Positions 6,604-62,776 of a stretch of 64,000 bases of DNA are shown one piece after another. Numbering within the stretch: position 1 is the first letter of the stretch; the number at the start of each line of letters is the position of its first letter. The notes beneath the pieces are model-generated. The model was not told the DNA's origin. It did not search any database and saw nothing but the letters and a program-made list of their open reading frames with translations. The stretch covers positions 102,421 to 166,420 of the forward strand of contig CADCIP010000001.1 in assembly GCA_902801485.1 (NCBI GenBank), read 5' to 3'. This stretch comes from an uncultured Bacteroidales bacterium (lineage in GTDB: Bacteria; Bacteroidota; Bacteroidia; Bacteroidales; Bacteroidaceae). Both the position numbers and the translations under genes were made by a program.

Positions 6604-6680
6604 AAGCCAGTTTACTGTTTACCGTTTACGGTTTACTGTTTTGGTCGTTCCGCTAACCGCTAACCGCTCCACGCTAACCA
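6604..6680. repeat. two heptanucleotide repeat runs between hflX and a lipoprotein gene
   Basis: Units of 7 bp run in register: GTTTACT, GTTTACC, GTTTACG, GTTTACT, then CGCTAAC twice, CGCTCCA, CGCTAAC. The interval has no gene. It belongs to the heptanucleotide set described in the findings. Confidence 0.75.
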
Positions 6681-6684
6681 TTCT

Positions 6685-7539
6685 TTACTTCACCTGCACC
6701 ACCAGATACTTTCCTGTGCTCCAGAACTTAACAGGGTCGGAGATATGCAACTCATACAGTCCCTTGCTATCCTTTACCATCTGGTAACTGCCAGAGGGAT
6801 GATTGGTAAGCATGGTGGCACTCTTACTGTAGAACTTAATAACCTTATCGTAACGGATATCAATTTGGGTAAAGTAATCCTTGTTGAAGTTCCCGTCACG
6901 CAGCACATCGCCATTCTGCAGTATCTTCTCCTCCTTCAGCTCTGCTTTAGTACCGAAGACAAACCATGCTGCATTCAGTTGCTTCTCCTGTGTGGCAACA
7001 GTAGCCGCCTTCTGTTTGTTTTCCTCAGTCAGCGTGTTCACACTCTCGTTCAGGGTATTAATCTGTTCACCCTGTTCGGCCAGTTGAACATCCTTCTCGG
7101 CAAGTTTTGCCTCCAACTCCTGAATACGGGCTGTTTGTGTATCTATCTGAGCCTGCAGGTTCTCAACTGTCTTCTTCAGCTTTTCTGCATTGAAGGAACT
7201 TTTGCGCAGTTTTTCTTTCAGCTGGGCAATCATATCGCGGTTCTGCTGCATAGCATCACGAATAAACTGCATATTCTCCAGGATTACCTCCTTGTTGCTG
7301 GCACTTTCGGGATTGCCGTCGGCAACGGTTACCCGTCCCTCGGCTTCATTTATACGTCTGATTCCTTCCTGTACTTCATCGAAAGTACTCATGATATCAT
7401 TCAACTCTATATCCTTTTCGTTTATAATCCGCTGTAGCGAATCACGTTCCTGCTCAATGGCAGCCTCACTAACTTGCTGACTCTGGCCGCAAGAAACCAA
7501 CAGCAAAGTTACTACTGAAATAAATCCGAACTTTTTCAT
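6685..7539 (-). CDS. coiled-coil lipoprotein, function unknown
   Basis: A 284-residue protein. The ATG at 7539 is chosen over an upstream TTG at 7563 because it gives a lipoprotein signal, MKKFGFISVVTLLLVSC, with the lipidated Cys17. Residues about 25-190 are strongly heptad-patterned coiled coil with many Glu, Gln and Lys. The last about 90 residues form a compact globular end (from WFVFGTKAEL) that is typical of a family of Bacteroidota lipoproteins with no known role. It probably sits on the inner face of the outer membrane. Heptanucleotide repeats lie on both sides. Confidence 0.8.
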   Translation of the reverse strand: MKKFGFISVVTLLLVSCGQSQQVSEAAIEQERDSLQRIINEKDIELNDIMSTFDEVQEGIRRINEAEGRVTVADGNPESASNKEVILENMQFIRDAMQQNRDMIAQLKEKLRKSSFNAEKLKKTVENLQAQIDTQTARIQELEAKLAEKDVQLAEQGEQINTLNESVNTLTEENKQKAATVATQEKQLNAAWFVFGTKAELKEEKILQNGDVLRDGNFNKDYFTQIDIRYDKVIKFYSKSATMLTNHPSGSYQMVKDSKGLYELHISDPVKFWSTGKYLVVQVK

Positions 7540-7561
7540 ATCAATATTATTTTGAATTCTC

Positions 7562-7602
7562 AATATCCTCTCTAAACTCTCAACTCTAAACTCTAAACTC
7601 TC
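7562..7602. repeat. heptanucleotide repeat, TCTAAAC/TCTCAAC type
   Basis: Five 7-bp units in register (TCTAAAC, TCTCAAC, TCTAAAC, TCTAAAC, TCTCTTA) lie between rsmI and the lipoprotein gene. The same unit occurs in frame inside the GH95 gene at 20190-20270. Confidence 0.8.
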
Positions 7603-8274
7603 TTATAAGGCTCCGCCCAAAACGATTACGAATTCACCTCTGGGTTCATTCTTTTTAAAGTGTTCCAAGACCTCTTCCACGGTGCCGCGAACGCTCTCCT
7701 CATGGATTTTACTAATCTCACGGCATACGCTAACGGGTCTGTCGAATCCGAAGACTTCCTTGAACTGCTCCAAAGTCTTTACAATGCGATGAGGAGATTC
7801 ATAGAAAATCATCGTTCGGGATTCCTCGGCAAGCGCGTTGAGTCGGGTCTGGCGTCCCTTCTTTTGGGGCAGAAAACCCTCGAAGCAGAACTTGTCGCAA
7901 GGCAGTCCGCTGCTTACCAAGGCAGGCACAAAAGCTGTTGCGCCTGGCAGAGTAATTACCTCTACGCCTGCTTTTATGGCTTCGCGGGCCACCAGAAAGC
8001 CAGGGTCGCTGATACCTGGTGTGCCGGCATCGCTTACCACAGCCACAGTCTCGCCGCCCTTCAGTCGTTCCACCACACGGTCAACGGTCTGGTGCTCATT
8101 GAACTTATGGTACGAAAGCATAGCATTCTTAATCTCGAAGTGCTTCAGCAGTATGCCGCTGGTCCGAGTGTCCTCGGCCAGAATCAGGTCAGCCTCCTTC
8201 AGCACCTTCAAGGCTCTGAATGTGATATCTTCCAAATTTCCTACCGGTGTAGGTACCAAGTACAATGTCCCCAT
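7603..8274 (-). CDS. rsmI: 16S rRNA (cytidine1402-2'-O)-methyltransferase
   Basis: A 223-residue tetrapyrrole-methylase-fold enzyme that uses SAM to methylate the ribose of C1402 in the decoding centre. The start at 8274 (MGTLYLVPTPVGNLEDIT) is the conserved RsmI start. A longer frame reaching 8334 would begin upstream of the -7 box at 8297-8304 and is rejected. Motifs seen are TPVGNLEDIT, AEDTRTS, VSDAGTPGISDPG and the LPGATAFVPALVSSGLP loop, plus ESPHRI near the C-terminus. At 223 residues it lacks the extra C-terminal helical extension of E. coli RsmI (286 residues), as is usual in this phylum. Confidence 0.95.
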   Translation of the reverse strand: MGTLYLVPTPVGNLEDITFRALKVLKEADLILAEDTRTSGILLKHFEIKNAMLSYHKFNEHQTVDRVVERLKGGETVAVVSDAGTPGISDPGFLVAREAIKAGVEVITLPGATAFVPALVSSGLPCDKFCFEGFLPQKKGRQTRLNALAEESRTMIFYESPHRIVKTLEQFKEVFGFDRPVSVCREISKIHEESVRGTVEEVLEHFKKNEPRGEFVIVLGGAL

Positions 8275-8296
8275 TTCCGAAATGCCAATTTGGGGA

Positions 8297-8304
8297 CAAA
8301 AATA
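8297..8304 (-). promoter_or_regulatory. -7 box of rsmI
   Basis: On the minus strand TATTTTTG matches TAnnTTTG, 22 bp before the rsmI ATG. No TTTG is seen at the proper -33 spacing. Confidence 0.6.
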
Positions 8305-8399
8305 AACATAAAAAACGATTTTGCGGATAAACAAGTCAAAATATTTAGATTATTTCAAATTTTTTAAACCCCCCATGGGGCTAATTCAAATAGAATGTA

Positions 8400-8472: not shown

Positions 8473-9609
8473 ATGTTTGAACAAAAGATAACTTTCGACA
8501 GTTTTATCCGCAGTATTACAGTCCTCTGTCTTTCTGTAGGAGCCGTATGGTTGCTCAACACCCTTTCCAGCGTATTGTTACCTTTCTTTATAGCATGGCT
8601 TCTTGCCTATCTGCTATATCCTCTTGTGCGATTTATCCAGCACAGGTTACGTTTGCGCAACCGTATTCTCAGCATCGTAGTAGCCCTGTTGTTTGTGTTT
8701 GCTTTGTTGGCAGGCTTTATTGCCCTGATTGTTCCCCCGATTATAAAAGAGACCATACACATTGCCGAATTGACTACGCTGTATTTCCATGATGTGATGA
8801 CTCAGACCAACATGTCGAAATACATACAGAATGTTGTTGATTATCTCAGCAATAAGAACACCCTTGTCAATCTGGTTCAGCAAAGTTCGTTTATCGATGC
8901 CATGCAGACCGTTATGCTTCAAACCTGGAATGTGGTTTCCAGCACGGTAAATGTGGCCTTGAGTGTGCTTGGCGTGTTTGTCGTGCTACTCTATATGTTC
9001 TTTATATTGGTAGATTACGAAAAGATATGTCAGGGTTGGGTGAATCTTATTCCTGCCGGCAAGAGAAACTTTGCCTCTATGGTGGTACAGGATGTCAAGA
9101 ACGGCATGAATGCTTATTTCCGCGGCCAATCCCTGATAGCCCTTATCGTAGGCATCCTGTTCAGTATCGGTTTCCTTATTATAGATTTCCCTTTGGCAAT
9201 TGGATTGGGTTTGTTTATAGGGTTCCTTAATTTAGTGCCTTATATGCAGCTATTTGGCTTTATTCCCACCATACTGCTGGCTATTCTTAAGGCAACCGAG
9301 ACAGGCGAGAGTTTCTGGTTCATAATGCTTTGTGCTTTGGCCGTCTTTGCTGTGGTGCAACTCATACAGGATATGTACCTTACGCCTCGGATCATGGGGC
9401 ATGTTATGGGACTGAACCCCGCCATTATTCTGCTCAGCCTTTCCATTTGGGGTAGCTTGATGGGTATTATCGGCTTAATTATAGCCCTTCCGCTCACCAC
9501 GCTGTTGCTGTCCTATTACCGCAGATTTATACTCAAAGAAGTCGCCGCAGAAGCTGAAACAGAGCAAAAAACAGAGGAGGACGCACAAAAAAGTGAGGAA
9601 AATGAATAA
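8473..9609 (+). CDS. AI-2E family membrane transporter (PerM/YdiK-like)
   Basis: A 378-residue integral membrane protein with about eight predicted transmembrane segments: two pairs near residues 15-35, 38-52, 65-90 and 150-180, then a dense C-terminal block from about 210 to 345. The periplasmic or soluble stretch between segments 3 and 4 (about 90-150) and the C-terminal pattern 'GLGLFIGFLNLVPYMQLFGF' and 'TPRIMGHVMGLNPAIILLS' are typical of the family. Members have been linked to autoinducer-2 or ion export, and the substrate here cannot be told. The acidic tail is Glu/Lys-rich. A single gene with its own -7 box. Confidence 0.9.
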   Translation: MFEQKITFDSFIRSITVLCLSVGAVWLLNTLSSVLLPFFIAWLLAYLLYPLVRFIQHRLRLRNRILSIVVALLFVFALLAGFIALIVPPIIKETIHIAELTTLYFHDVMTQTNMSKYIQNVVDYLSNKNTLVNLVQQSSFIDAMQTVMLQTWNVVSSTVNVALSVLGVFVVLLYMFFILVDYEKICQGWVNLIPAGKRNFASMVVQDVKNGMNAYFRGQSLIALIVGILFSIGFLIIDFPLAIGLGLFIGFLNLVPYMQLFGFIPTILLAILKATETGESFWFIMLCALAVFAVVQLIQDMYLTPRIMGHVMGLNPAIILLSLSIWGSLMGIIGLIIALPLTTLLLSYYRRFILKEVAAEAETEQKTEEDAQKSEENE

Positions 9610-9641
9610 TTTTGAATTATGAATTTTGAATTATGAATTAA
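9610..9641. repeat. heptanucleotide repeat, TGAATTA/TGAATTT type
   Basis: Four to five 7-bp units (TGAATTA, TGAATTT, TGAATTA, TGAATTA) directly follow the stop of the AI-2E gene and run into the tRNA-Lys promoter, supplying its -33 TTTG. Confidence 0.8.
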
Positions 9642-9691: not shown

Positions 9692-9764
9692 GGTCCGCTA
9701 GCTCAGTTGGTAGAGCACAACACTTTTAATGTTGGGGTCTTGGGTTCGAACCCCAAGCGGGCTA
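9692..9764 (+). tRNA. tRNA-Lys (anticodon TTT)
   Basis: A complete cloverleaf of 73 nt: acceptor GGTCCGC/GCGGGCT (G1-U72 wobble), D-arm GCTC/GAGC, anticodon stem CAACA/TGTTG with loop CTTTTAA, 5-nt variable loop, T-arm TTGGG-TTCGAAC-CCCAA, discriminator A. No CCA is encoded. Fragments of this gene recur at 9830-9883 and 15178-15258. Confidence 0.97.
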
Positions 9765-9773
9765 CAGCAAAAA

Positions 9774-12890: not shown

Positions 12891-14516
12891 ATGCGCCGTT
12901 TTATTCATTTCCTTCAGATTGCGTTGCTGCTGATGCTCCCCGTTACGGTAATAGCCAAAGAAACATATACTACACGGTATTTCTACCATTGGGAGAAGAA
13001 AGAAGGTACGCCCCACCCAGAGGACGTTATTTTGGCTTTGGAATACAAGCAGGATAACAGCCTGTACAAGGTACGCATTTATTGCACTACCGACGAGGAC
13101 AATAAAACACGTGTAAGATTCCTGCCCGGTTTTTATGTGCTGGAGCACCCCATCCTCCCCCAAGACAAGGTGAGCGAGAACGAGTACAACTTAGAGTTCT
13201 TCCCTCAGGCTAAAATGGTGTATGCCCAGCCTGTAGAGATTAAATACAAGGAGCCAGAAGCACCATGGAAGAGCGGTAAATATCAGACGTGGCGCTACAC
13301 AAAGACTTTTCACCCCAACAGCTTTAAATACAAGATGCGGTTGGAATCCGATGGCACATTAACCCTGAAAGGCCACTATTACAAAGACCGCAAGTTCTTC
13401 CCTATGAGCGAGGCACAGGTCAGCTCCCTGAACCGTAACACCTACGACGAAAAACTGCTGGCTGCCAACAGAACCGTTAATCCCATAGACGACGAGAGAG
13501 CCAGGGCTGCATCATCCATAGCCAAGAAAAACGTTCAAAGGACCTTACGTAAGGACGGAAAGGTGTATTACGAGGGAGAAGTATCACTCTACAAGAACGG
13601 ACAAACGCTTATCGAGGGGAAAGGAAAATATTACTTTTCCGACGGAACCGTCTATGAGGGAGACTTTGTAAACGGCAAGCGCCAGGGCTATGGCACAATC
13701 GTATGGGGCGACTCCACCCAATGGGCTGGCGAACGCTACGAAGGCGAATGGAACGACGGTTGGCGAACAGGTCAGGGAACCTATACCGATGCCCACGGAA
13801 ATATTTCTAAGGGCCGTTGGGAAAAGAACATCCTGGTGGAACCCGAAAGTCAGACCCCAGAGGTGGCCACAGAAATAAAGAACCCTCCATCCGGAATGGC
13901 TATGCTCGAATTCTTTGCATCGAACGGCAAACTGCAGATAGACTTTCAGGAAGTTGAGACTTTCGTAAAACAGAATGCCCAAGGATATAAAGAGCTGATG
14001 GAAAAGTTCCACGAAGACCCTTTGTCTCTTTCGAACGAAGAAGCAGCCATGCTTTATTATGGTTTTGCCTTTACCAAGGATTACGACCCCGACCATGTAG
14101 ATCTGATAGTTGCACCGACACAACTCATTAAGGAAGGCAAACTGCAGGAAGCCTTTGATGTATGCCAGAAAGAATTGCAGAAGGCCCCTGTATCGCTATC
14201 TCTTCTCTTGAGGGCTGCTCTGGCGGCTGGTATGCTGAAACATCCCGATGCTCAGAAATACAGTCAGAAGGTAGCTAAGATTATGACTGCTATTATGTCA
14301 AGCGGAACGGGTTACAGTCAGGATAAGGCCATAAAGGTTATATTCATCTCCGACGAATATGCCATCTTCCGTGACGGTATGCGTTTTGTCCTTTCACAGC
14401 AGGATTTTATCGATTCGCGTTACGACCGTATGACATTGGAGACGGGCAACAAGGGAGAATCCATCATCCTCTGGTTCGATACTTATCTGGTTCAGCAAAG
14501 ACGCAAGGGGGATTGA
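12891..14516 (+). CDS. secreted MORN-repeat protein with C-terminal DUF4919
   Basis: A 541-residue protein with a signal peptide (about 1-22, MRRFIHFLQIALLLMLPVTV). Residues about 215-305 contain MORN-type repeats of the form YEGxFxxGxRxGxGT: GKVYYEGEVSLYKNG, GTVYEGDFVNGKRQGYGTI and ERYEGEWNDGWRTGQGTYT. Residues about 340-538 form a DUF4919 domain (LYYGFAFTKDYDP...) that is closely related to almost the whole gene at 16094-16894. MORN repeats usually act as scaffold or lipid-facing beta sheets. The function of DUF4919 is unknown. The protein is probably periplasmic or surface-held. Confidence 0.85.
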   Translation: MRRFIHFLQIALLLMLPVTVIAKETYTTRYFYHWEKKEGTPHPEDVILALEYKQDNSLYKVRIYCTTDEDNKTRVRFLPGFYVLEHPILPQDKVSENEYNLEFFPQAKMVYAQPVEIKYKEPEAPWKSGKYQTWRYTKTFHPNSFKYKMRLESDGTLTLKGHYYKDRKFFPMSEAQVSSLNRNTYDEKLLAANRTVNPIDDERARAASSIAKKNVQRTLRKDGKVYYEGEVSLYKNGQTLIEGKGKYYFSDGTVYEGDFVNGKRQGYGTIVWGDSTQWAGERYEGEWNDGWRTGQGTYTDAHGNISKGRWEKNILVEPESQTPEVATEIKNPPSGMAMLEFFASNGKLQIDFQEVETFVKQNAQGYKELMEKFHEDPLSLSNEEAAMLYYGFAFTKDYDPDHVDLIVAPTQLIKEGKLQEAFDVCQKELQKAPVSLSLLLRAALAAGMLKHPDAQKYSQKVAKIMTAIMSSGTGYSQDKAIKVIFISDEYAIFRDGMRFVLSQQDFIDSRYDRMTLETGNKGESIILWFDTYLVQQRRKGD

Positions 14517-14781
14517 GAATTGAGAGTTGATGTGGCTAACAACAGTCTCAAAATGCTGTAAATTTATCCTCTCAAAGGCATCAGAAGAGATGCGCGAACC
14601 CCTTGTTCCGATGATTTTCCTGCATTTTCAACTCACCTGAGTGATGCGGAATTTTTATATTCTGACAACAAATACTATGAATTATGTGGCAAAATGGGAT
14701 GTTTGATCGGTTTTTTATGATATTGGCAAGTCTCAGTTGGCGCATCTTGTGAAGGCAATGTGCAGGGGTTTGTCAGGCAAG

Positions 14782-18651: not shown

Positions 18652-21195
18652 ATGGGAAGGTTTCAGAAACGGCTGATAACAGTAGCGGCATTATGCCTGG
18701 TTGTAACAGGAAAGGTATGTGCCCAGACGCTGCATTACGACAAACCTGCAGTATTCTTCGAGGAGGCTTTGGTAATCGGTAACGGCACTATGGGTGGTAT
18801 CATCTATGGCGGAACGGAGCAGGATAAAATCTCCTTGAATGATATTACGCTTTGGACGGGCGAACCCTGCAACATGAAGATTTATTCGCCAGATGCGCAC
18901 AAAAGCATTCCTGCCATCCGTGAAGCCTTACGTCAGGGTGATTATCAGAAAGCCGACTCGTTGCAGCACGATGTTCAGGGACATTTCTCGCAGAACTATC
19001 AGCCGTTGGGACAGCTTACCATAGATTATCTGGATACGGAAACACCTGCCTCAGGCTATCGCCGTTGGTTGGATATAGGCAACGCTACAGCTCATACAGC
19101 CTATCAAAGGGGTGCCTACCGATATACTACAGAATATTTTGCCACACATCCTGATTCGGGAATCGTTATCCGCATTAATACTGATAATCCCAAGGGAATC
19201 TGTGCCCGCATAGGACTGAGCTGTCAACTCAAGAGCCAGCTTCGTACAGAGGAAGGAAAGGTGCTGGTGAACGACGGCTATGCTGCCTATACCTCTTTAC
19301 CCAGCTATTACAATGCTCAGGAGCGCTTCTCTTATGACCCCTCTCGCGGCATTCATTTCTGCACCAAGGTCCAGGTGGAGGGAGAGAATGTAAAGGCCGA
19401 GGGCGATGCGGTTGTCGTAAACGGGTCCAGCGAGGTTGTCATCTATCTGGTAAATGCCACCTCTTTCAACGGCTACGATAAAGACCCAGTTAAGGAGGGC
19501 CGCCCCTATCGGCAATTGGCCGATGCCAGGATGAAACACCTGACGGCTTTGTCCTACGAAGCGCTGAAGGACCGCCACGTAACCGACTATAAGAATATCT
19601 TCGACCGAGTGAAGCTCTCTCTGGGGGAAAGCAAGTCAGATACTCGCTCTACCGAGGAAGTCCTGAAGGAGTATGTTGACGAGAGTATCTTCAATCCCGA
19701 CCTGGAAGCCCTTTACTTCCAGTATGGCCGCTACCTGCTTATCTCCTGCTCCCGAACACCTAATGTGCCAGCCAACCTGCAAGGCCTGTGGAACGAGAGC
19801 ATCCTGCCTCCCTGGTCGTGCAATTACACCACCAACATCAACCTGCAGGAGAACTACTGGCCCGCCGAGACAGCTGCATTGCCTGAAATGCACCTTTCTC
19901 TGCTTACCTACATGAAAGAATTGCAAGGGTCAGGTGAACTTACCGCCAAGGCCTACTATGGCGTGGATAAGGGTTGGTGCCTGGCTCATAATACCGACAT
20001 CTGGGCTATGACCTGCCCAGTCGGTCTTCATACGGGTGACCCCCAATGGGCCAACTGGAACATGGGTGGTACCTGGGTAAGCACGCACATATGGGAACAT
20101 TACACCTTCTCACTGGATAAGGAATTCCTGCAGGAGTACTATCCCGTACTGAAAGGTGCTGCTGAATTCTGCTTAGGTTGGCTGGTTCCCCTCTCAACCT
20201 TCAACCCTCAGCCCTCAACTCTAAACTCCCAACCTTCTACTCTCAACTCTCAACTCTCAACTCTAAACTATCTAGTCACCGGTCCGTGTACCTCGCCCGA
20301 GAATGCATATGTTACACCTCAAGGTTATCACGGACGTACCTGCTATGGCGGTTCGGCCGACTTGTCTATGATTCGCGAGTGTCTGACAGATGCCCGTAAT
20401 GCAGCATGTGTGTTGGGCTTGGACAAGGATTTCGTTGCTCAGGCCGATGAGGCGCTTGCTCGCCTTCAACCATATAAGATAGGTAAGAAAGGTAATCTCC
20501 AGGAGTGGTTCTACGACTGGGATGATGAAGACCCGCACCACCGTCATCAGAGTCACCTCTTTGGCATCTATCCTGGACATAACCTACCCGATGGCGTCAA
20601 CAGTCAGGAGGATATCAACCGCGCTGCCCTCAAGTCACTGGAAATCCGCGGCGATCGTACTACTGGTTGGAGTACGGGTTGGCGTGTAAACCTCTATGCT
20701 CGTCTGCACGATGCCAAGAACGCTTATCACATCTACCGCAAGTTGCTCTCTTATGTAAGTCCTGATGGCTATCGTGGCCCTGATGCACGCAGGGGTGGTG
20801 GAACCTATCCCAACCTGCTGGATGCTCATTCACCCTTCCAGATAGACGGCAACTTTGGCGGTTGTGCCGGCGTGATAGAGATGCTTATGCAAAGCCATTA
20901 TAACGTTAACGTTAACGATAACGATAACCAAGCGAAAAAAGATAATTATCAACTCTCAACTGTCAACTGTCAACTAAGCATAGAATTACTTCCTGCTTTG
21001 CCCGAGAACTGGAAGGATGGGGCAGTTAGCGGCATTCGTGCCCGTGGTGGAATTTCCGTCGATATGACTTGGAAGGACAGCAAGGTTACTGCCCTCACCC
21101 TTACCGCTCAGCATCCCTGCAAGGTGGCACTCAAGGTAAACGGACAGGTAAAAACAGTGAAACTGAAGAAAGGTAATAATAAGGTAAAATGCTAA
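18652..21195 (+). CDS. GH95 alpha-L-fucosidase or alpha-L-galactosidase
   Basis: An 847-residue secreted inverting glycosidase. The ATG at 18652 (MGRFQKRLITVAAL, signal peptide) is chosen, as an in-frame ATG at 18538 lies inside GH20. It has an N-terminal beta domain (GNGTMGGIIYGG), then an (alpha/alpha)6 barrel with NYTTNINLQENYWPAE (the two Asn that activate water, about residues 389-404), QEWFYDW/HRHQSHL (acid Glu region, about 615-632) and DAHSPFQIDGNFGG (about 723-736). Residues about 513-540 are a repeat-encoded insertion (STLNSQ type). A second insertion near 20900-20975 is encoded by hexamer and heptamer repeats. Both are absent from the usual family core. Confidence 0.95.
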   Translation: MGRFQKRLITVAALCLVVTGKVCAQTLHYDKPAVFFEEALVIGNGTMGGIIYGGTEQDKISLNDITLWTGEPCNMKIYSPDAHKSIPAIREALRQGDYQKADSLQHDVQGHFSQNYQPLGQLTIDYLDTETPASGYRRWLDIGNATAHTAYQRGAYRYTTEYFATHPDSGIVIRINTDNPKGICARIGLSCQLKSQLRTEEGKVLVNDGYAAYTSLPSYYNAQERFSYDPSRGIHFCTKVQVEGENVKAEGDAVVVNGSSEVVIYLVNATSFNGYDKDPVKEGRPYRQLADARMKHLTALSYEALKDRHVTDYKNIFDRVKLSLGESKSDTRSTEEVLKEYVDESIFNPDLEALYFQYGRYLLISCSRTPNVPANLQGLWNESILPPWSCNYTTNINLQENYWPAETAALPEMHLSLLTYMKELQGSGELTAKAYYGVDKGWCLAHNTDIWAMTCPVGLHTGDPQWANWNMGGTWVSTHIWEHYTFSLDKEFLQEYYPVLKGAAEFCLGWLVPLSTFNPQPSTLNSQPSTLNSQLSTLNYLVTGPCTSPENAYVTPQGYHGRTCYGGSADLSMIRECLTDARNAACVLGLDKDFVAQADEALARLQPYKIGKKGNLQEWFYDWDDEDPHHRHQSHLFGIYPGHNLPDGVNSQEDINRAALKSLEIRGDRTTGWSTGWRVNLYARLHDAKNAYHIYRKLLSYVSPDGYRGPDARRGGGTYPNLLDAHSPFQIDGNFGGCAGVIEMLMQSHYNVNVNDNDNQAKKDNYQLSTVNCQLSIELLPALPENWKDGAVSGIRARGGISVDMTWKDSKVTALTLTAQHPCKVALKVNGQVKTVKLKKGNNKVKC
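20190..20270 (+). repeat. in-frame heptanucleotide repeat in GH95
   Basis: About eleven units close to CTCAACT or CTAAACT, with the cleanest run at 20241-20266. Three 7-bp units make 21 bp, so the protein shows a 7-residue repeat (STLNSQL, STLNSQP). A change by one or two units would shift the frame of the catalytic domain. Confidence 0.85.
20903..20978 (+). repeat. hexamer and heptamer repeats near the GH95 3' end
   Basis: AACGTT/AACGAT hexamers (NVNVNDNDN in the protein) are followed by CAACTCT, CAACTGT, CAACTGT, CAACTAA. They separate the barrel (ending IEMLMQSHY) from the C-terminal beta domain (IELLPALPENW). Confidence 0.75.
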
Positions 21196-26888: not shown

Positions 26889-29483
26889 TTATTTCTTTAT
26901 TTTCTTGGTCTTAGCAGGTGCCTCTGGAGCGGGGTTTACCTTATCCATAAGAACGCGGAACCAGTAGCCACCGATTACGGAACGAGCCTTGAAGCCCACC
27001 ATATTACCAGTCTTAGTGTCGCTCCAGTCTGAGATGGGCACACGGCTCTGGGTCTCATTGATGTACTTATAGACGGGGCTGACAAACTTCTTGAATGTAT
27101 CAGCATCGGGAGCCATAGCAGCGGTCCACATAATCCAGTCGCTCTTGGTGTAATCCTTGCGACAATCGAGAGGCAGACCATACTTGTTCTGCTTGGTCAG
27201 ATAGTACTTGATTTCCGTCTGCATAGCATCGTTGGGGATGATGCCTGTGTTCCACAACTTATCCCATACCATATTATATTTCTGGCTCCAAGTGTCCTTG
27301 CCTGCGCCATATGCCAACTCATAGTGGTCGCCTACCTTGGTTTCCTTTTCCCAAGCAGCTGCCATCTCCTTGGCCTTAGCGTTGTACTTCTGATAAACAT
27401 CGTCCAAGCCCTTCATCTTTGCCATCTCGGCATAACCAGCAATACCCATGATAGCCTTCAGTGCCAAGTTACAGTTGCCTGCCCAATGGCCAGCGAAGTC
27501 ATCAGTACAGAGTTGGTTGGCAGGATGCAAGCCGTTCTCTACCAAGTAATCCACCCAGATGGTCATCATATCCCAGTAAGGATCTGCGTAGGCAGTGTTG
27601 CCGTCCAACTTGCATATTTCGGCTGCCAAGGTAAGCATATTACCAGACTCCTCCAGAGGCATGTCGCCACCATACACCTGCTTGTTGGCTAATGGATACT
27701 GACCCAGGTCGTGAGCTGCGAAGGGCTTTGTCCAACGACCGCTCTTGCTATAATCGAAGATAGAGGTCATCATGGCCTTCTGCAGATTGGGGTTGTAGCA
27801 AAGAACCAGCGGAGCCTCGGGGTAAGTGAGGTCGACGGTGTTCACACAACCATTGGAGTTATTCTCCTTAGAGAACCACAGCAGATTGCCATCCTTATCC
27901 TGGAAGAGTTTGTGGGCAGCCATCACGTGACGGTAAGAACCAGAGAGGATTTCGGCATATTCCTGACCACCAGACTTGAAACCATCGTCGTAAATCATCT
28001 TATCGAAGGCACGACAACGCTGCATAATGCTGGCGTAGCCGTTCTGCATATTCTTGAAGGCATCAAAGATAGTCACGCTGCCACCATGAGCCCAGTAGCC
28101 TTTGTAGCGGTTGTAGAAGTATTCGATGTCCTCTATTTCATCGTAACCCATCATCATAAAGCTGCTGGCGGTTTCTACGCTGCCAAAGTCGTGGGTATAA
28201 GCCAAAACGGGCATCTCGGCAGGCTTGCGGGCAATGATGGGACCCCTTCTAAATCTCCCCGAGGGGCGACTTTCATTCACTCCCCTTTGGGGGAGACGGA
28301 GGGGGGCCACTCCTGTCTCCACAAAGTTGTTCTGAATCTCGGAGGCATCACCCATCATCACACGACCGTTGATAGCGGGAATATAGAAGTAACCCCAGTC
28401 GATGCAGATGCCGTCGCCCGACTTAGCCAGAATGGGCTGCTCGATGGTACCTGTACGAACGTACTGCACGCCCTTCTCGTTGCCCATAGTGGTAATGGTG
28501 GGCTGTGTGTTGGTGTTCACTGCCTGCAAGGGGTTGGCACTGATGTACACCTGCACGTCGTGCTTCCTTCCATCAGTAGCGCGGACCTGATAAGAGATGT
28601 AGTTGATGGGCATAGAGATAAGGTCGTAGTCGTCAATCAGCATGGGAGCAGTGAAGACGATGTCTAGTTCTACGGGCCCACACGCGAATGTATAATAGGT
28701 ATTGGTAGCCAAAACGTCTACACTCTTCTGTTCTGCCACCAGAACGTTGGCACCCTTAGGCTTGATGTTCTTGAACAGACCGAAGTCGACGTATGCACCG
28801 CCTGTGGTATTGTGGCAGTGAGCTGAGATGATGTTCTTGCCGGCATGCAAGAGGTTCTTCAGGTCGCCATCCAGATGCAGTACCACATTATTGACCCAAG
28901 TCTCGCCTGTATCGGCCACCTTTGTACCATTGATATAGAGTTCAAACACATCGTCGTGCGAATATTTCACATACAGGTCTTCCTGCAACTGCTGAGCAGT
29001 CAGCTCCACCTCACGACGGATATAGATATCCGAACCTTGGCGGCCAAAGCGACGATTGCTGATATTTTCACCCTCGGTTCCCCAAGCAGCCTTCTCGGTG
29101 CGCCACTCAGAATCGCTGAAGTTCTCCTTCTGCCAACCGTCGGCGGGTGTCTGATAAGTTACCTTACCTTCCCAGCGCTCCTCGTCAGACATAGGCGCGA
29201 TAGAAGAGAGCACATAGGTCTGCTCTGCACCCATAAAGCGATAGGCGGTACCGTCAACACGCAGGATGCCTAAGATGGGCTTCTCATCGTTGGTCCAGTG
29301 ACGGGTGGTTCCATCGGTCAGCTTATCAAAAGGCGACCAGATAGAAAAATAGGGGTCATTCACTACCAGAGGCACAGAAGGCAGACGCAAGTCTGTGCTG
29401 GCATAGGGCTTAAAAAACTCTGCAGTCTGTGCGAAAGCCATTGTCGCAGCAAACAAGCAAGCGGTTAAAATCTTTTTTCTCAT
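26889..29483 (-). CDS. DUF4965 (glutaminase A-like) multidomain secreted protein
   Basis: An 864-residue protein with a signal peptide (MRKKILTACLFAATMAFA). It has the standard order DUF4964 (RLPSVPLVVNDPYFSIWSP), DUF5127 with an embedded galactose-binding sandwich (DLYVKYSHDDVFELYINGTKV), DUF4965 (about 430-600) and DUF1793 (from about 620, 'LTAAEICKLDGNTAYADP'-like barrel), ending in a Lys-rich tail. Fungal and bacterial relatives are labelled glutaminase GtaA, but the fold is that of a glycoside hydrolase barrel and the gene sits among glycosidases, so the substrate may be a glycan. Residues about 390-413 (APLRLPQRGVNESRPSGRFRRG) are repeat-encoded. Confidence 0.88.
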   Translation of the reverse strand: MRKKILTACLFAATMAFAQTAEFFKPYASTDLRLPSVPLVVNDPYFSIWSPFDKLTDGTTRHWTNDEKPILGILRVDGTAYRFMGAEQTYVLSSIAPMSDEERWEGKVTYQTPADGWQKENFSDSEWRTEKAAWGTEGENISNRRFGRQGSDIYIRREVELTAQQLQEDLYVKYSHDDVFELYINGTKVADTGETWVNNVVLHLDGDLKNLLHAGKNIISAHCHNTTGGAYVDFGLFKNIKPKGANVLVAEQKSVDVLATNTYYTFACGPVELDIVFTAPMLIDDYDLISMPINYISYQVRATDGRKHDVQVYISANPLQAVNTNTQPTITTMGNEKGVQYVRTGTIEQPILAKSGDGICIDWGYFYIPAINGRVMMGDASEIQNNFVETGVAPLRLPQRGVNESRPSGRFRRGPIIARKPAEMPVLAYTHDFGSVETASSFMMMGYDEIEDIEYFYNRYKGYWAHGGSVTIFDAFKNMQNGYASIMQRCRAFDKMIYDDGFKSGGQEYAEILSGSYRHVMAAHKLFQDKDGNLLWFSKENNSNGCVNTVDLTYPEAPLVLCYNPNLQKAMMTSIFDYSKSGRWTKPFAAHDLGQYPLANKQVYGGDMPLEESGNMLTLAAEICKLDGNTAYADPYWDMMTIWVDYLVENGLHPANQLCTDDFAGHWAGNCNLALKAIMGIAGYAEMAKMKGLDDVYQKYNAKAKEMAAAWEKETKVGDHYELAYGAGKDTWSQKYNMVWDKLWNTGIIPNDAMQTEIKYYLTKQNKYGLPLDCRKDYTKSDWIMWTAAMAPDADTFKKFVSPVYKYINETQSRVPISDWSDTKTGNMVGFKARSVIGGYWFRVLMDKVNPAPEAPAKTKKIKK
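28240..28313. repeat. GC-rich repeat, double copy, inside the DUF4965 gene
   Basis: CTCCCCGAGGGG and CTCCCCTTTGGGGGAG hairpins followed by GGAGGGGGGCC. The frame of the minus-strand gene is kept. The insertion adds about 23 residues rich in Arg, Pro and Gly between GVxVNNFVETG and PIIARKP. Confidence 0.75.
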
Positions 29484-31578: not shown

Positions 31579-31609
31579 TATTGGTTGGTTTTTAGGATAA
31601 TTTCGGGTG

Positions 31610-35867: not shown

Positions 35868-35887
35868 AAAATAAAAGAATGAATAAT

Positions 35888-39804: not shown

Positions 39805-39829
39805 TAATTAATAATTCATAATTGACAAT

Positions 39830-41380
39830 ATGGCTGCATACAAACTGCTTTGGGTAGATGATGAGATAGAATTATTGAAGGCGCATATCCTGTATCTGGA
39901 GAAAAAGGGATATGGGGTGGAAACTGTTACAAATGGCTACGATGCGTTGGATCGCTGTGCAGAGGAAACCTTCGACCTTATCCTGTTGGACGAGAACATG
40001 CCTGGTTTGAGCGGTTTGGAAACCCTTAACCGGATTAAGGAACAGACACCCAGCACACCTGTGGTAATGGTCACCAAGAGCGAGGAGGAAAACATCATGG
40101 AGCAAGCCATCGGTGCCAAGATTGCCGACTACCTTATCAAACCCGTGAACCCGACCCAGATTCTGCTGACACTGAAGAAAAACATTCATCAGAAGGAAAT
40201 TGTTACGGAACAGCAGACAACAGCCTATCAGCAAGATTTTGGGAAGATTGGTATGCAAATCAACGATTCTCTCTCACTGGAGGAATGGATAGAAGTTTAC
40301 AAACGTCTTACCTATTGGGAGTTGCAATTATCCGAAACAGACAGTGCCATGAAGGAGATGCTGAATATGCAGCGTTCTGAAGCTAACAGGGAATTTACCA
40401 AGTTCATACGAAAGAACTATACCAAATGGATGTCCCAACCGGATAATCGGCCTGTGATGAGCCCGGACATCTTTAAACATAGTATATTCCCCCATTTGAA
40501 TAACGAAGAAAAGGTCTTCCTTGTGGTAATAGATAATTTCCGCTATGACCAGTGGCGTATGCTATACAACGAGATTGCCGACCTGTTTAATATCGAAGAG
40601 AATCTTTATTGTAGCATCCTTCCTACGGCAACCCAATACGCCAGGAATGCCATCTTCAGCGGTCTGATGCCCGATGTTATAGAACGTATGTTCCCTGACT
40701 TATGGGTTGACGAAGACAGCGAAGAGGGCAAGAACCTTAACGAGGCTCCGTTGGTGCAGACGCAGTTCGACCGTTACAGGCGCAAGAACACATTCAGCTA
40801 TCACAAAATCAACGACTCTCAGGCAGCAGAGAAACTGGTGCAGCAGATGCCGCAGTTGCAGAGGTATGACCTGAATGTGGTGGTGATGAACTTCATAGAT
40901 ATGCTCAGCCACGCACGTACCGAGAGTAGAATGGTACGCGAACTGGCGAGCAACGAGGCTGCTTACCGCAGCATTACACAAAGTTGGTTCCGACACTCGC
41001 CCGTAGGAGACCTTTTCCGCTATCTGGCTTCCAGCGACTACACAATAGTTCTGACCACAGACCACGGAAGTATTCGTTGTTATAACCCCATAAAGGTAGT
41101 AGGCGACAAGAACACCAATACAAACTTACGCTATAAATTAGGCAAGAACCTCAGCTACAACCAGAAAGAAGTATTTGAGATTAAGGAGCCTCATCAAGTG
41201 GGACTGCCCAGACCCAATCTTAGCACCACCTACATCTTTGCGACAGGCGATGACTTCTTTGCCTATCCAAACAACTATAACTACTACGTACAATATTATA
41301 AAGACACCTTCCAGCACGGAGGCATCAGCATGGAGGAAATGCTGATTCCGCTCATTACCCTGCGTGGAAAGAAGAGATAA
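39830..41380 (+). CDS. porX: PorX-type response regulator with PglZ phosphatase domain
   Basis: A 516-residue protein: an N-terminal receiver domain (KLLWVDDE acidic pocket, phospho-acceptor Asp in [10 protein letters not shown], Lys in LIKPVNP), a helical linker, and a C-terminal alkaline-phosphatase-superfamily PglZ domain ([55 protein letters not shown]). PorX regulates type IX secretion and, in Porphyromonas, cleaves oligonucleotide signals. The neighbour upstream is the PorW/SprE homologue, the arrangement expected for a shared system. Confidence 0.92.
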
Positions 41381-53736: not shown

Positions 53737-53747
53737 TTCAACTTTTG

Positions 53748-53807
53748 GAAGTTAAAAGGGAAGTTAAAAGGGAAGTTAAAAGGGAAGTTAAAAGGGAAGT
53801 TAAATGG
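53748..53807. repeat. five tandem 12-bp repeats
   Basis: GAAGTTAAAAGG four times and GAAGTTAAATGG once, perfectly in tandem after the GH92 stop. Reverse copies of the core (TTAACTTC) occur at about 53865-53910, so the transcript can fold back. Confidence 0.9.
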
Positions 53808-53848
53808 ACAATACCAAAACAGATTGCCAACTTTTAAAGCTATCGTCC

Positions 53849-53865
53849 AGCCAGCCCTGCTGGCT
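53849..53865 (+). other. short perfect hairpin before the MFS gene
   Basis: AGCCAGC-CCT-GCTGGCT, 7-bp stem with a 3-nt loop, between the GAAGTTAA array and its TTAACTTC reverse copies. No T run follows, so it may be an mRNA processing or stabilising element. Confidence 0.55.
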
Positions 53866-53933
53866 TAACTTCCTGCGCAAAGCGCATAACTTCTTATTTA
53901 ACTTCATTTTATAACTTCTGAAACTTAAATAAA

Positions 53934-55245: not shown

Positions 55246-55277
55246 AATTTTTGCCGCCACGTTAGGCGGCAAAAATT
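55246..55277. terminator. bidirectional terminator-like hairpin
   Basis: Perfect 13-bp stem AATTTTTGCCGCC/GGCGGCAAAAATT with loop ACGTTA. The upstream TTTTGCCGCCACGTTAGG at 55205 is a partial copy of it. It could end the MFS operon. Confidence 0.7.
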
Positions 55278-55350
55278 CTTATGCTAAAGAACATATTATG
55301 CCATTTCTGCCGACTTTCCGATTGTCAAAATATTTCCATTTTGCACGTTT

Positions 55351-55729
55351 CTTCAGTTGACAGTTGACAGTTTCTGTTTCAGGAAATGTATACAGTATAC
55401 AGTATACAGTTTGTTTTTCACAAAAACGACTCAGATATCAGTTATATCAGATATCAGTTTCCTTTTTTGATTTTTAGACATGGATTGACTAAAGTACACA
55501 TACTACTTACTATTTAATATATACTATTATATATAATATATATTATATAATATGATAATATAGTATATAATTAATAATAATATAATAATACTATAATGTA
55601 TAACAACAAATGCTGTGGCCTCATTTTTCATTTTTGGAAACTGATATCTGATATCTGATTCCAAAAACCGATTTTCAAAAACCAAACTGTCAACTGTCAA
55701 CTGAAGAAACTGTATACTGTATACTGTAT
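55351..55729. repeat. three perfect inverted repeats of heptamer arrays
   Basis: A 55351-55373 pairs with A' 55684-55706 (23 of 23, CAGTTGA units). B 55390-55412 pairs with B' 55707-55729 (23 of 23, CAGTATA units). C 55444-55462 pairs with C' 55636-55654 (19 of 19, CAGATAT units). The order A-B-C then C'-A'-B' means they are not simply nested. Confidence 0.9.
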
Positions 55730-55885
55730 CTGTCTTTTGTGCAAAAAATGCACTGTCCTTTGTCCCAATTGTCACAACTCTGCTAATTTTTTTACCGAAG
55801 TTGCCACAAGAAAACCAATTTGTATTGATTGACCATAAACCATGAACCAAACAAGGCCTGTCACCTTTGATTCATCGAGATAGGC

Positions 55886-55952
55886 TGAACGAGTTGTTCC
55901 CCCTATCTGTACGACTCGTTCAGATAATCCCTTACCCCCCTAAAGGATTATC
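55886..55952. repeat. two adjoining hairpins
   Basis: TGAACGAGT (55886-55894) pairs with ACTCGTTCA (55914-55922). GATAATCC (55923-55930) pairs with GGATTATC (55945-55952). Further ACTCGTC and CCCTATC motifs follow, also found near 63755. Confidence 0.7.
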
Positions 55953-56123
55953 CGAGCAACTCGTCAACCCTATCCGAACATGTCATTAACCCTATCTGAA
56001 TAAAAGTGACCCATTTTCTTGGATGTCAAAAGTGAGTTAACCACAAAACAATCAAGTTAGAGAAGCTTCGCAAACAAGCTGGAAAGAATTTGGTTCAATA
56101 CTCCTTGCGACTTGCGTGGCAAG

Positions 56124-60338: not shown

Positions 60339-60346
60339 ACAACGAT

Positions 60347-62737
60347 ATGAACGTATTCAGAAACATGCTTTACATGGCACGTCGCTTCAAGACGGCGACA
60401 GTGCTCAACTTCATCGGCCTCACGGTGTCCTTCGCCGCCTTTTACCTGCTGATGACACAGGTCATCTATAATCGCTCTTACAACTTCTCCATCCCTGATG
60501 GCGAGCGTGTCTTCCGACTGGAGTCGAAGGTGAACCCCGACGCGCAGTGGGACATCAACTGCAACCGCCCCATCCACGCCCTCGTGGCCAAGATGCCGCA
60601 GGTGGAAGCCGTGTCGGAACTGGCCACATGGGGTGGCAGCTGGAATATACTGGTGGGCGAAAGCACCGTGGAGCAGTTCTGCATGGGCACTAACCTGACA
60701 CCCTTCGGGGCCGTCGGCGCACGCTGCCTCGACGGCCGCCTGTCGTGGGACGACTACGGCGAACGCACTGCCATCATCCCAGCCTCGCTGGCACGCAAGG
60801 TCTATGGGCGGGTCAACGTGGCTGGCGAACCGCTCTATTCAGAGACTGACACAATCATAGTGCAGGGTGTCTATGAGGACTTCCCCGACAATTGCTCGAT
60901 GAAGAACAACCTTTACTACGCCACCCAAGACAATCTCGACAACTGGAGTGAGTGGAGCTCCACCCTCTACGTGAAGTTGGCCGAGAATGTCAATGCAGAC
61001 ACCCTGCTGAAAGACTTCCCCGAACAGATGCGCCAGCTGATGTGGCGCAGGCAGTGGGGGCAGGCAGTTGCTTCTGGCGTATATGATGAGAATCAGGAGG
61101 CAGACATCAAAGCAAAGTTTGACGCCCACTTCGGCTTTGAGTTCCGCCTGACTCCTATTCGCGACACTTACTTTTCCGGCGTAAGCTCCGACGACAAGGG
61201 CAACCCCGCCATGCTCTTCATCCTCGAGCTGGCCTCGCTGCTCATCATCGTCATTGCTGCCATCAACTTCCTCAATTTCGTGTTGGCCGAGAGTCCCATG
61301 CGCATCAAGGGCATCAACACCCGTCGCGTTTTGGGCGAGGGCCTGTGGCAGCTGCGTCTCGGGCTGGTGGGCGAGGCTGTTGTCACGTCTTTGCTGGCTT
61401 GTGTCATAGCCTATGTCTTGTGTGTCGCTGTATCGCGGCAACAGACGGAACTGCTACTGGGCGACCTCAGCCTTTCCGCCCACCCCTGGCTCGCGGCTTT
61501 TACCGCCTTGATAGCGATTGCGGCAGGCATCGCTGCCGGCACCTATCCCGCCTTCTTCGCCACCTCGTTCCAGCCTGCTCTCACACTCAAAGGCTCTTTC
61601 GGTCTTACGCCAAAAGGAAGGCAACTACGCACGGCACTCGTCTGCCTGCAAATCGGCATTGCCCTCTTAATGGTCACCTACATCGGCATCCTTCTCCTGC
61701 AGAGCCGTTTCATCTATCACTCCGACTACGGCTTCGCGAAGGACGAGGTGCTCTATGCCCAGCTCTCTGACGAACTGATGCATAAAAAAGATGCCATACG
61801 CACAGAACTGATGCAGATTGGTGGCATTGATGATGTCAGCTTCTCACGCTTCGTGCTGGGCTCACAGGAAGGATATATGGGCTGGGGACGCAGCGACGAT
61901 GACCACAAAATCACCTTTACCAGCATGCCCGTAGATTACCACTACCTGCGCACGATGGGCATCAAGGTTATCGAGGGCCGCGACTTCAACGAGCACGACG
62001 GCGATGTTTATATCATTAACGAGGCCGCCCGCAGGCAGTGGCCGTGGGTGGAGATGGACAAGCCGTTGCTGGAGGGCGACCTGTCCGTCGTAGGTGTGTG
62101 CGAGAACGTCCGCTATGCCTCCACCCGTCAGGACCGCACACAGGAGCCCGTCGCCTTCGTCATTTTTGGCGAGAAGTATAGCGGCTGGGGCGACCAGCTT
62201 GGAATAGTGAACATACGCGTGGCAGCCGGTGTTGACAAGCTGTCCGTGCGGCGGCAGGTCAACCAGCGGCTCACGGCCATGGGCAGCGGCGAAGATGTCG
62301 AAGTACTGTTCCTCGATGAACAATTGGAGAATCTCTATCAGGAGGAGTTTCGCTTCATCCGCCAGGTGCTGTGGTTCACCGCCGTCTGCTTCGTCATCAC
62401 CCTCATCGGTGTCTTCTGCCTCACAATGTTCGAGACGGAGTATCGCCGCAAGGAGATAGCTATCCGCAAGGTAATGGGCAGCAGCGTGGGCGAAGTGCTG
62501 TCGCTCTTTACCAAACGTTATGCCATTCCGCTCATCCTCTCCTTCGTGATAGCAGCACCTGTTGGTTACTACATCAGCGAACAATGGCTTCAGAACTTTG
62601 CTGAACATACACCCATCCACTGGTGGTTGTTCCCTCTGGCATTCCTCATTGTCAGCATAGTCGTTCTCCTTACCGTCATCATCCAAAGTTGGCGAGTTGC
62701 AACGATGAACCCAGTAGAGAGCATCAAGACAGAGTAG
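60347..62737 (+). CDS. MacB/FtsX-type ABC transporter permease
   Basis: A 796-residue permease of the Bacteroidota long type: two FtsX-like modules in one chain, each with an N-terminal span and a large periplasmic MacB_PCD domain. Transmembrane segments are near 20-40, 285-305, 335-360, 385-405, 430-450, then a C-terminal set near 675-700, 725-745 and 765-785. The conserved end is 'WRVATMNPVESIKTE'. It forms the membrane part with the ATPase that follows 39 bp later. The DNA is markedly GC-richer than the flanking genes. Confidence 0.9.
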   Translation: MNVFRNMLYMARRFKTATVLNFIGLTVSFAAFYLLMTQVIYNRSYNFSIPDGERVFRLESKVNPDAQWDINCNRPIHALVAKMPQVEAVSELATWGGSWNILVGESTVEQFCMGTNLTPFGAVGARCLDGRLSWDDYGERTAIIPASLARKVYGRVNVAGEPLYSETDTIIVQGVYEDFPDNCSMKNNLYYATQDNLDNWSEWSSTLYVKLAENVNADTLLKDFPEQMRQLMWRRQWGQAVASGVYDENQEADIKAKFDAHFGFEFRLTPIRDTYFSGVSSDDKGNPAMLFILELASLLIIVIAAINFLNFVLAESPMRIKGINTRRVLGEGLWQLRLGLVGEAVVTSLLACVIAYVLCVAVSRQQTELLLGDLSLSAHPWLAAFTALIAIAAGIAAGTYPAFFATSFQPALTLKGSFGLTPKGRQLRTALVCLQIGIALLMVTYIGILLLQSRFIYHSDYGFAKDEVLYAQLSDELMHKKDAIRTELMQIGGIDDVSFSRFVLGSQEGYMGWGRSDDDHKITFTSMPVDYHYLRTMGIKVIEGRDFNEHDGDVYIINEAARRQWPWVEMDKPLLEGDLSVVGVCENVRYASTRQDRTQEPVAFVIFGEKYSGWGDQLGIVNIRVAAGVDKLSVRRQVNQRLTAMGSGEDVEVLFLDEQLENLYQEEFRFIRQVLWFTAVCFVITLIGVFCLTMFETEYRRKEIAIRKVMGSSVGEVLSLFTKRYAIPLILSFVIAAPVGYYISEQWLQNFAEHTPIHWWLFPLAFLIVSIVVLLTVIIQSWRVATMNPVESIKTE

Positions 62738-62776
62738 AATAAATGGTAAATTGTAAATTGTTAAATAGCAAATAAT
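62738..62776. repeat. heptanucleotide repeat, GTAAATT type
   Basis: GTAAATT, GTAAATT, GTTAAAT between the permease and ATPase genes of one operon. Confidence 0.65.

Follow-up and report, generated by a model that had tools for sequence, protein, structure and literature searches.

Why should short tandem repeats of many different sequences, scattered over one bacterial genome, all share a period of exactly seven nucleotides? The question is raised by a stretch of 64,000 nucleotides (hereafter the window; G000:C1:102421-166420) from a 3.61-Mb draft, in 85 contigs, of an uncultured Bacteroidales bacterium, in which arrays of heptanucleotide units lie both between genes and within them. We describe here a property of these heptamers that is new, namely that variants gather at one place in the unit, and tentatively read the arrays, at a confidence short of probable, as by-products of a DNA synthesis error that steps back 7 nt, recopies about six bases and fills one loosely.

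A preliminary description of the window had listed tandem units of 7 bp at nine places; Tandem Repeats Finder confirmed all nine and added two (20949-20975 and 35852-35870). Exact runs of at least 12 matches occur in the window 11 times at lag 7, once at lag 8 and never at lags 6 and 9, and ten Markov controls gave a mean of 0.0 runs at lag 7. The genome scan covered 858,855 of 3,607,779 bases (24%), comprising the window and 40 stretches from contigs C1-C8 only, with 643 genes (88.8% coding) from our own simple gene caller. Counted by fundamental period (29 of the period-7 arrays were initially detected at a multiple of 7), the scan holds 142 arrays of period 7 against 15, 14, 18 and 14 of periods 6, 8, 9 and 12; one Markov control contained two arrays in all, none of period 7. 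The preliminary description had staked its case on an excess over periods 6, 8 and 9, and the excess is there. It is roughly tenfold in spacers (95 against 7, 10 and 7 at periods 6, 8 and 9) and persists in coding DNA (37 against 8, 1 and 9), where it is notable because the reading frame would favor 6 and 9.

The excess extends to relatives. By the PorX-like protein, the nearest named ones are rumen and gut Bacteroidaceae, Prevotellaceae and Paraprevotella, most of them metagenome-assembled, and in 80 PorX loci from named genomes (1.38 Mb) period 7 accounts for 86 arrays, against 30 at period 8 and 41 at period 22. Twenty stretches, drawn from as many genomes of the same genus (389,052 bases; a first batch chosen without regard to heptamers), contain 35, 7, 13 and 16 arrays of periods 7, 8, 9 and 22, unevenly distributed: nine have no period-7 array and two have 6 or 7. 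The PorX loci are uneven as well: of the 70 that measure 11 kb or more, 31 lack arrays (counts overdispersed, chi-square per degree of freedom 2.47). Twenty stretches from other Bacteroidales families (367 kb) gave 10 arrays of period 7, 5 of period 8 and none of period 22, and 50 kb of Escherichia coli K-12 gave none at the periods printed. The lead of period 7 is smaller in relatives, both in spacers (117 against 1, 42 and 37 at periods 6, 8 and 9) and in genes (44 against 6, 7 and 14); a second batch of their stretches was mostly chosen around contigs with pattern hits, so that its densities are biased high. As a separate observation, period 22 is the next commonest class in PorX loci L004-L083 and in the same-genus stretches; these arrays in relatives are intergenic in 68 cases and coding in 2, and are present in stretches without heptamers (G011, G012, G024 and G025).

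In many arrays one place of the unit is far more variable than the other six. Read directly, GTTTAC is followed in successive units by T, G, A, G and G, and GTAAAC by C, A, C, G and T. Concentration was measured against a null that keeps the units carrying a variant, moves the variant to a random position and requires that the array still pass detection: 86 co-positioned variant pairs were counted where 40.3 were expected (z 9.4; 184 of 355 arrays entered), and a smaller run gave 80 against 36.8 (166 of 253 arrays entered, 1 skipped). The effect is strongest at period 7 among the periods tested, and arrays of period 22 have no such excess (11 against 10.3). Clean cases with a single free base number 21 among the 260 arrays that reach 28 bases; at the free place C occurs 34 times, A 31, G 31 and T 28, an evenness favored by the three-letter requirement, and neighboring free bases agree in 29 of 103 comparisons against 27.1 expected. 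Triples of units, counted leaving out viral loci selected by the counted patterns, are heterogeneous at n in 25 of 27 cases for GTTTACn (9 with three letters), 6 of 6 for GTAAATn, 46 of 63 for AATTGAn (11 with three letters), 28 of 46 for AGTTGAn, 24 of 32 for TCAATGn, 8 of 13 for TGAAGAn and 6 of 10 for AGTTTAn. In the control, where n is fixed in turn at A, C, G and T while a different place is freed, heterogeneous triples fall to 9 of 24 for GTTTAC and 41 of 163 for AATTGA, with 2 three-letter triples each; AGTTnAG is heterogeneous in 8 of 21. An independent collection, the IMG/VR contigs, repeats the pattern among the matches listed, with AATTGAn heterogeneous in 160 of 244 triples (23 three-letter, all four bases common) and the moved place AATnGAG in 48 of 102 (1 three-letter).

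The arrays of the window lie as follows.

6610-6641, plus strand: GTTTAC plus a base that changes (T, C, G, T); intergenic, with a minus-strand gene on either side.
6650-6679, plus strand: CGCTAAC array adjoining the GTTTACn array; the two-unit succession recurs at L205:11567-11618.
7570-7601, minus strand: TTTAGAG/TTGAGAG array between genes 6685-7563 and 7603-8334.
9608-9640, plus strand: TGAATT with A or T, starting within the stop codon of the AI-2E transporter gene, upstream of the tRNA at 9692-9764.
14512-14530, plus strand: short, weak ATTGAGA array (2.7 copies, score 31) overlapping the stop codon of gene 12891-14516.
20191-20269, plus strand: 11 imperfect heptamers within the GH95 gene (18652-21195); the encoded stretch, STFNPQPSTLNSQPSTLNSQLSTLN, lies in a loop.
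20949-20975, plus strand: TCAACT with C or G, in a second loop of the same GH95 gene.
29497-29522, no strand assigned: TAATTCA array between genes 26889-29483 and 29560-31653.
35852-35870, plus strand: GTGAAAA array passing through the stop codon of gene 34515-35867.
39804-39823, plus strand: short, weak TAATTCA/TAATTAA array (score 33) in the 25-base gap that precedes the PorX-like gene (39830-41380).
55347-55410, plus strand: CAGTTGA and CAGTATA arrays, left side of a large inverted arrangement.
55428-55462, plus strand: CAGATAT array, left side of the inverted arrangement.
55636-55733, plus strand: CTGATAT, AACTGTC and ACTGTAT arrays, the complementary right side.
62740-62766, plus strand: GTAAATT array separating the FtsX-like gene (60347-62737) from the ABC ATPase gene (62777-63454).

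Over the scanned 24% of the genome, 95 of the 142 arrays are intergenic, 37 lie inside open reading frames and 10 are mixed, which corresponds to 0.99 arrays per kb of spacer and 0.049 per kb of gene, a 20-fold difference. The proposal that heptamers mark gene junctions therefore holds for the intergenic majority and fails for the 37 coding arrays, among them the place at 20190, inside the GH95 gene. It also fails at finer scale: the window arrays at 9608, 14512 and 35852 start inside a stop codon or pass through one, yet within co-directional spacers the excess at gene ends suggested for testing is not significant either at stops (22 of 76 arrays within 10 nt against 17.5 at random; 155 of 2000 draws as high) or at starts (14 of 76 against 17.4). 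An attraction to gene ends was rejected on these figures; the arrays are a feature of spacers and protein loops, not specifically of gene ends.

The large inverted arrangement lies at 55347-55733, where CAGTTGA, CAGTATA and CAGATAT stand to the left of an AT-rich center and their complements to the right, in the order CAGATAT, CAGTTGA, CAGTATA. Inverted arms of 27, 26 and 19 bases pair at 100, 96 and 100% (55347-55373 with 55684-55710 at 27 of 27), and the folding energy of the strand is -68.8 kcal/mol, where shuffles average -30.1. At gathering scores, the only RNA families in the window are two tRNAs. The window also holds repeats of other kinds: a GCCGCCACGTTAGGCGGC hairpin at 55246-55277; an intergenic dispersed element of about 170 bases (window 55829-56022, L209:11326-11655 and L095:15118-15547; copies 82-91% identical), whose window copy holds a period-22 array (TATCCGAACAACTCATCAACCC); a dispersed spacer element of about 190 bases (window 53737-53933, L197:7095-7326, L206:916-1303 and L103:18080-18318; 77-91% identical), whose window copy holds 4.8 copies of GGAAGTTAAAAG; and a cluster past the last called gene, in which GCCTACAT and AAGCCTACATG, and likewise AACATATACCCT, are repeated (63847-63951 and 63623-63656).

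The 37 coding arrays are mostly oriented with their stop-free strand in use and encode seven-residue repeats such as STLNSQL and SILNSQF. Those of the GH95 enzyme fall in loops at residues ~513-540 and 751-776 that have no counterpart in the solved homologue 2rdy. Among its three closest orthologues, one lacks a repeat-like insert in the first loop and two carry different repeat-like inserts, and short similar residues (QPSTL) are kept in the second loop of two; ten more distant orthologues have no comparable insert. The orthologue at L240 (genome G034) was seen to carry, in the equivalent loop, a 42-base (6 x 7) repeat that starts ACATCCTACATCATCCATCAGCCCTCTT and is heptamer-like at a higher order. 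Glutaminyl-tRNA synthetase has an extra stretch, including SNLYSQLSTYQG, relative to the E. coli enzyme. This loop is enlarged in 5 of 30 genomes (our own and 29 relatives): arrays were called by score here (TCAACTC) and in G027 (CTTCAAT and AAAATTG), about two copies each of CAACTTT-type units are visible by eye, uncalled, in G018, and the other two enlarged loops have no clear array. Valyl-tRNA synthetase carries 4.9 perfect copies of CAATTCT here and AATTTTC/AATTCTC in G029, with no array in the other 26 of 28 genomes covering the place, including G001 at 89% identity; the array swaps the loop sequence with little net change of length (99 bases against 93-108 in four array-free relatives). 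Arrays also occur in an altronate dehydratase, a GH2 enzyme, a DEAD-box helicase, an FGGY kinase and a family-4 glycosyl transferase. A further group near protein C-termini was noted, placed after GRKV/GRRI and before KG.YI/KKGL (L203:2518-2549, L203:4788-4816, L209:8204-8233, L209:11242-11271, L208:16557-16583 and L098:8197-8221), in ends that by sequence presumably resemble the type IX secretion C-terminal signal.

The valyl-tRNA synthetase gene is single-copy in the assembly and, like other array-carrying genes of this kind, essential. Since insertions of +7 or +14 break the frame, perfect heptamers in such genes suggest that intragenic arrays are born several units at once or arrive ready-made. 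By adding new peptide loops to tRNA synthetases and glycosidases, the arrays would be a source of protein variation.

These results bear on the alternative that fares best, ordinary slippage, in which the polymerase, being in contact with about 7 nt of DNA, favors steps of that length and point mutation yields the variants, an idea of Mrazek and colleagues as cited in passages of PMC4679880 and PMC4692102. The 7-nt step that it predicts is what dominates here and, according to the work cited in those passages, in many bacteria; two- or three-unit blocks occur in some arrays (as in the 29 of 142 initially caught at a multiple of 7), and several families are variable at more than one place. Point mutation, however, should strike the seven positions evenly, whereas variants concentrate on one, and one-unit steps should make neighbors most alike, whereas unit identity is 0.837 at a distance of 1 unit, 0.79 at 4 and 0.836 at 7. 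Adjacent identity exceeds the array's own shuffle in 32 of 55 arrays, and adjacent units agree in n less often (0.442) than units two apart (0.523). The lack of a steady fall in identity, with a free base shared less by adjacent units, speaks against one-unit slippage followed by even mutation without deciding the matter, and a +7 step would break the frame of valyl-tRNA synthetase, which nonetheless holds its 4.9 perfect copies. Slippage, offered in the preliminary description as one possible generator, would account for the step and does not, in its plain form, predict the single variable position; we regard it as possible, on the unlikely side.

Comparison of orthologous junctions, proposed from the start as a check, gave a mixed answer: period 7 recurs with other units in some relatives and is often absent. 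Downstream of the AI-2E gene, period-7 arrays occur in 5 of 30 loci (10 of 30 at a lower threshold), with units TGAATTA, TTTAAAC, TTTTGAA, TTTTTAA/TTCTTAA and GTAAATn. Before the ABC gene an array is present in this genome alone, 1 of 30 best matches, some of which are not orthologues, and many of the printed spacers before PorX contain, by eye, heptamers of other units. The equivalent place in a sister species has a different unit or none; in two cases the unit is one favored by that genome, and the glutaminyl-tRNA synthetase loops of G018 and G027 use their own genome's commonest unit among four patterns tried.

The units of this genome form a restricted vocabulary. With rotation and strand removed, the 142 arrays comprise 64 distinct AT-rich units (consensus bases A 330, T 325, G 177 and C 162) and form 241 same-unit pairs, where random intergenic 7-mers give 17.9 (maximum 40 in 500 draws). 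The claim that the unit varies from place to place while the period stays 7 is thus right as to the many units, though their choice is not free. Across genomes, unit identity is 0.0261 within and 0.0135 between, a contrast matched in 0 of 300 label shuffles when the three units used for picking stretches are dropped, leaving 202 of the 249 thinned arrays; the full 249 give 0.0306 and 0.0211 (1 of 300). Pattern counts over 61 genomes, overlapping hits included, follow the same lines. The TCAAYTC-type pattern has 80 hits here, 45 in G018, 30 in G029 and none in 40 genomes; CAACTTT has 122 in G018, 39 in G029 and 4 here; TTCAATG x3 has 51 in G015 and 1 here; and CTTCAAT x3 has 15 in G027, 9 in G001, 3 in G005 and a single hit in G014, the remaining 57 genomes, this one among them, having none. 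Reading the patterns backward provides an informative control for TTCAATG (1 control hit overall) and CTTCAAT (0), and one that is not independent for TCAAYTC and CAACTTT, whose reversed patterns are again the same kind of array. Such favorite units may mark lineages.

Vocabulary and dialects are what would be expected if arrays were small passive mobile sequences, pieces of which are copied to new sites by recombination or gap-filling repair. The same loop of glutaminyl-tRNA synthetase carries CTTCAAT in G027, CAACTTT in G018 and TCAACTC here; the succession of GTTTACn and CGCTAAC stands both in the window and at L205; and 870 of 2,506 BLAST pieces linking arrays that lie over 1 kb from each other extend at least 15 nt past the called array, an extension that is partly neighboring heptamers (25 of the 870 were listed). 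A 114-base composite, 95.6% identical, is found at two unlinked places, L196:4416-4529 and L205:11751-11864, where a GCCGCCACTGGCGG-type hairpin accompanies a heptamer-like stretch (AGTTGAGAGTTGATAGTTTAAAGTTGAGAG) that falls outside the called arrays; another 39 bases are common to L196 and L205 at 97.4%. These shared stretches indicate that some of this DNA has been copied between places. Copying should, however, transfer the variable bases with the rest, whereas inside arrays the free base appears reshuffled, and no insertion enzyme or target duplication was noticed, although no systematic search for either was made. The array-free relatives at the GH95 and valyl-tRNA synthetase loops fit copying and stepping equally. 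As the general origin of the arrays, mobility seems to us unlikely.

A function for the arrays is less credible still. They might be binding sites for a protein that reads a hexamer and skips a spacer base, or three-frame stop cassettes: a constant hexamer with a free base is how a spaced direct repeat should look, and 131 of the 142 units contain a stop on one strand or both. Relative to shuffled units, stop content is raised here (z 3.3 intergenic, 2.6 coding) and in relatives' coding arrays (z 2.7), but not in their intergenic arrays (103 of 117 against 101.4 expected, z 0.5), and the excess is weak when distinct intergenic units are counted (z 1.9 and 1.0). Of 124 distinct units, more than expected contain TGA/TCA (54 against 34.7) and fewer contain TAG (20 against 32.6), with TAA near expectation (47 against 44.9). 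With TAG depleted, relatives' intergenic arrays at z 0.5 and no significant proximity to stop codons, stop cassettes were rejected. Hexamers vary between arrays, sister species lack arrays at the equivalent place, and function as a whole appears improbable. That the arrays are assembly artefacts can be put aside as barely conceivable, for although the window belongs to an 85-contig draft and most named relatives are metagenome-assembled, the tRNA synthetase frames remain open through their arrays, separate assemblies give different units at one site, and one of three isolate loci, that of Bacteroides salyersiae DSM 18765 (L053), carries two arrays of period 7 (the others are L068, without any, and L076, with just one of period 8).

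The idea of a common generator with a 7-nt step gains from the constancy of the period over many units, across this genome and several relatives, and from its recurrence at the same junctions elsewhere, and it is in a modified form that we tentatively retain it. In the back-stepping reading, a recurrent error of DNA synthesis, in replication or repair, would step back 7 nucleotides; at each step about six bases would be recopied from the preceding unit or a local template and one filled with little fidelity, leaving a near-constant hexamer and a variable base. New arrays would persist where sequence is free, in spacers and protein loops, survival in a loop requiring a net length change in multiples of three and no stop, and would turn over quickly without a common function; copying between places would be a second route beside stepping.

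Several observations weigh against this proposal. Unit sharing within the genome is far above chance and units differ between genomes, neither of which a purely local template predicts, and the near-identical stretches of L196 and L205 speak for copying. Concentration on one position is not confined to 7 (z 2.8, 2.7, 5.1, 4.5, 1.0 and 2.2 at periods 6, 8, 9, 10, 12 and 15), and a null that ignores carriers gives a milder excess, 84 pairs against ~60 (38, 25 and 21 against 28.2, 16.3 and 15.2 in three sets; z 2.3, 2.3 and 1.8). Second variable places exist, with heterogeneous triples in 16 of 24 cases for TCAATnT, 18 of 29 each for nATTGAA and TGAAnAT, 9 of 14 for nCAATGG and 6 of 10 for GTTTAnA, and the free base of AGTTGAn is mostly G or A. 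Overlapping triples are multiply counted, those of GTTTACn coming from 15 runs in 9 loci and those of AATTGAn from 27 runs in 19 loci. In viral contigs GTTTACn (26 of 44) and GTTnACG (14 of 30, n held at its commonest letter only) are clearly apart only in three-letter triples (10 against 1), and adjacent identity summed over arrays, 373.1, slightly exceeds that of shuffled order, 362.4. Nor was an enzyme identified: RVT_1 was not found in this genome (85% complete) and does not track array richness. Over 37 genus genomes it is present in 5 of the 14 rich in arrays (at least 8 hits, four array patterns) and in 6 of the 11 without a hit, the remaining 12 lying in between. A reverse transcriptase acting by telomerase-like addition was accordingly rejected as the source.

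A bolder version of stepping, which we consider doubtful, would invoke an unrecognised DNA synthesis activity of Bacteroidales that copies a hexamer and adds one untemplated base, an analogue of telomere-like stuttering; it would lay down an entire array at a single stroke, whether in a spacer or in the loop of an important protein, and would also act in the sources of many IMG/VR contigs. One published idea for the bacterial preference for 7 bases is a polymerase footprint (as cited in PMC4679880 and PMC4692102), and the six steady bases with one free one that are often seen here separate the models: under plain slippage neighbors should be alike and mutation even, whereas under untemplated addition one place should carry a random base.

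Much of what is described here is already known from cyanobacteria, Xanthomonas and Beggiatoaceae, namely an excess of heptamers, intragenic copies, inverted pairs and variable unit positions. The short tandemly repeated repetitive (STRR) sequences of heterocystous cyanobacteria also have heptamer units, and Vioque in 1997 reportedly found copies inside the RNase P RNA gene. The present arrays resemble them as dispersed short tandem repeats that also enter essential genes, there an RNA gene and here genes for enzymes, and likewise include one unit at many unlinked, mostly intergenic places (TCAAYTC with 80 hits; 95 of 142 arrays intergenic). Heptanucleotides are the commonest class of long simple sequence repeats in most genomes studied, with slippage proposed as the cause (Mrazek et al. 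2007, cited in PMC4679880 and PMC4692102), and the excess of period 7 over chance and neighboring lengths that defines the class is present here (142 against 15, 14 and 18; none in the Markov control); a single variable position is not mentioned in the citing passages.

Heptamer arrays in Bacteroidota are in print as TAACTGA repeats, found in five members including Paludibacter, some with other adjoining heptamers (MacGregor 2015, PMC4679880). These repeats, shared with marine Beggiatoaceae and cyanobacteria, likewise occupy many junctions at partly species-specific sites, with some copies in open reading frames; their indels between two sister Cyanothece strains come mostly in 7-nt increments, and they place stops in three frames of one orientation (PMC4679880). 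According to the same passages, TAACTGA is a single fixed unit whose one-base neighbors are rarely repeated, it lies close upstream of starts in the main genome, and its copies in reading frames are mainly at protein ends. The present genome has many units, none of them the canonical form AACTGAT among its 64, shows no significant bias to starts (14 of 76 against 17.4 at random) or stops, and has copies in mid-protein loops.

The closest parallel to the variable base comes from Xanthomonas, where GGGAATC or (GGGANTN)n, conserved at positions 1-4 and 6, occupies 186 and 183 places in two genomes, with GGGGA(C/T)T as the counterpart in Nostoc PCC 7120 (PMC4692102). These are 7-base units, mostly intergenic and sometimes intragenic, with certain positions variable and others conserved, as here; the Xanthomonas repeats, moreover, form convergent inverted pairs comparable to that at 55347-55733 and differ in length and sequence between two species (PMC4692102). 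In view of (GGGANTN)n, position-limited variation in heptamers is not wholly new; the passages of PMC4679880 and PMC4692102 drawn on here do not describe a free base in the heptamers of Bacteroidota. Xanthomonas and Nostoc each have one G-rich family per genome with G-quadruplex potential, a kind of unit unlike those of our arrays, and most Xanthomonas repeats lie between the same genes in both species (PMC4692102). The Bacteroidales genome has instead dozens of AT-rich units, a position open to all four letters, and orthologous places that are often empty.

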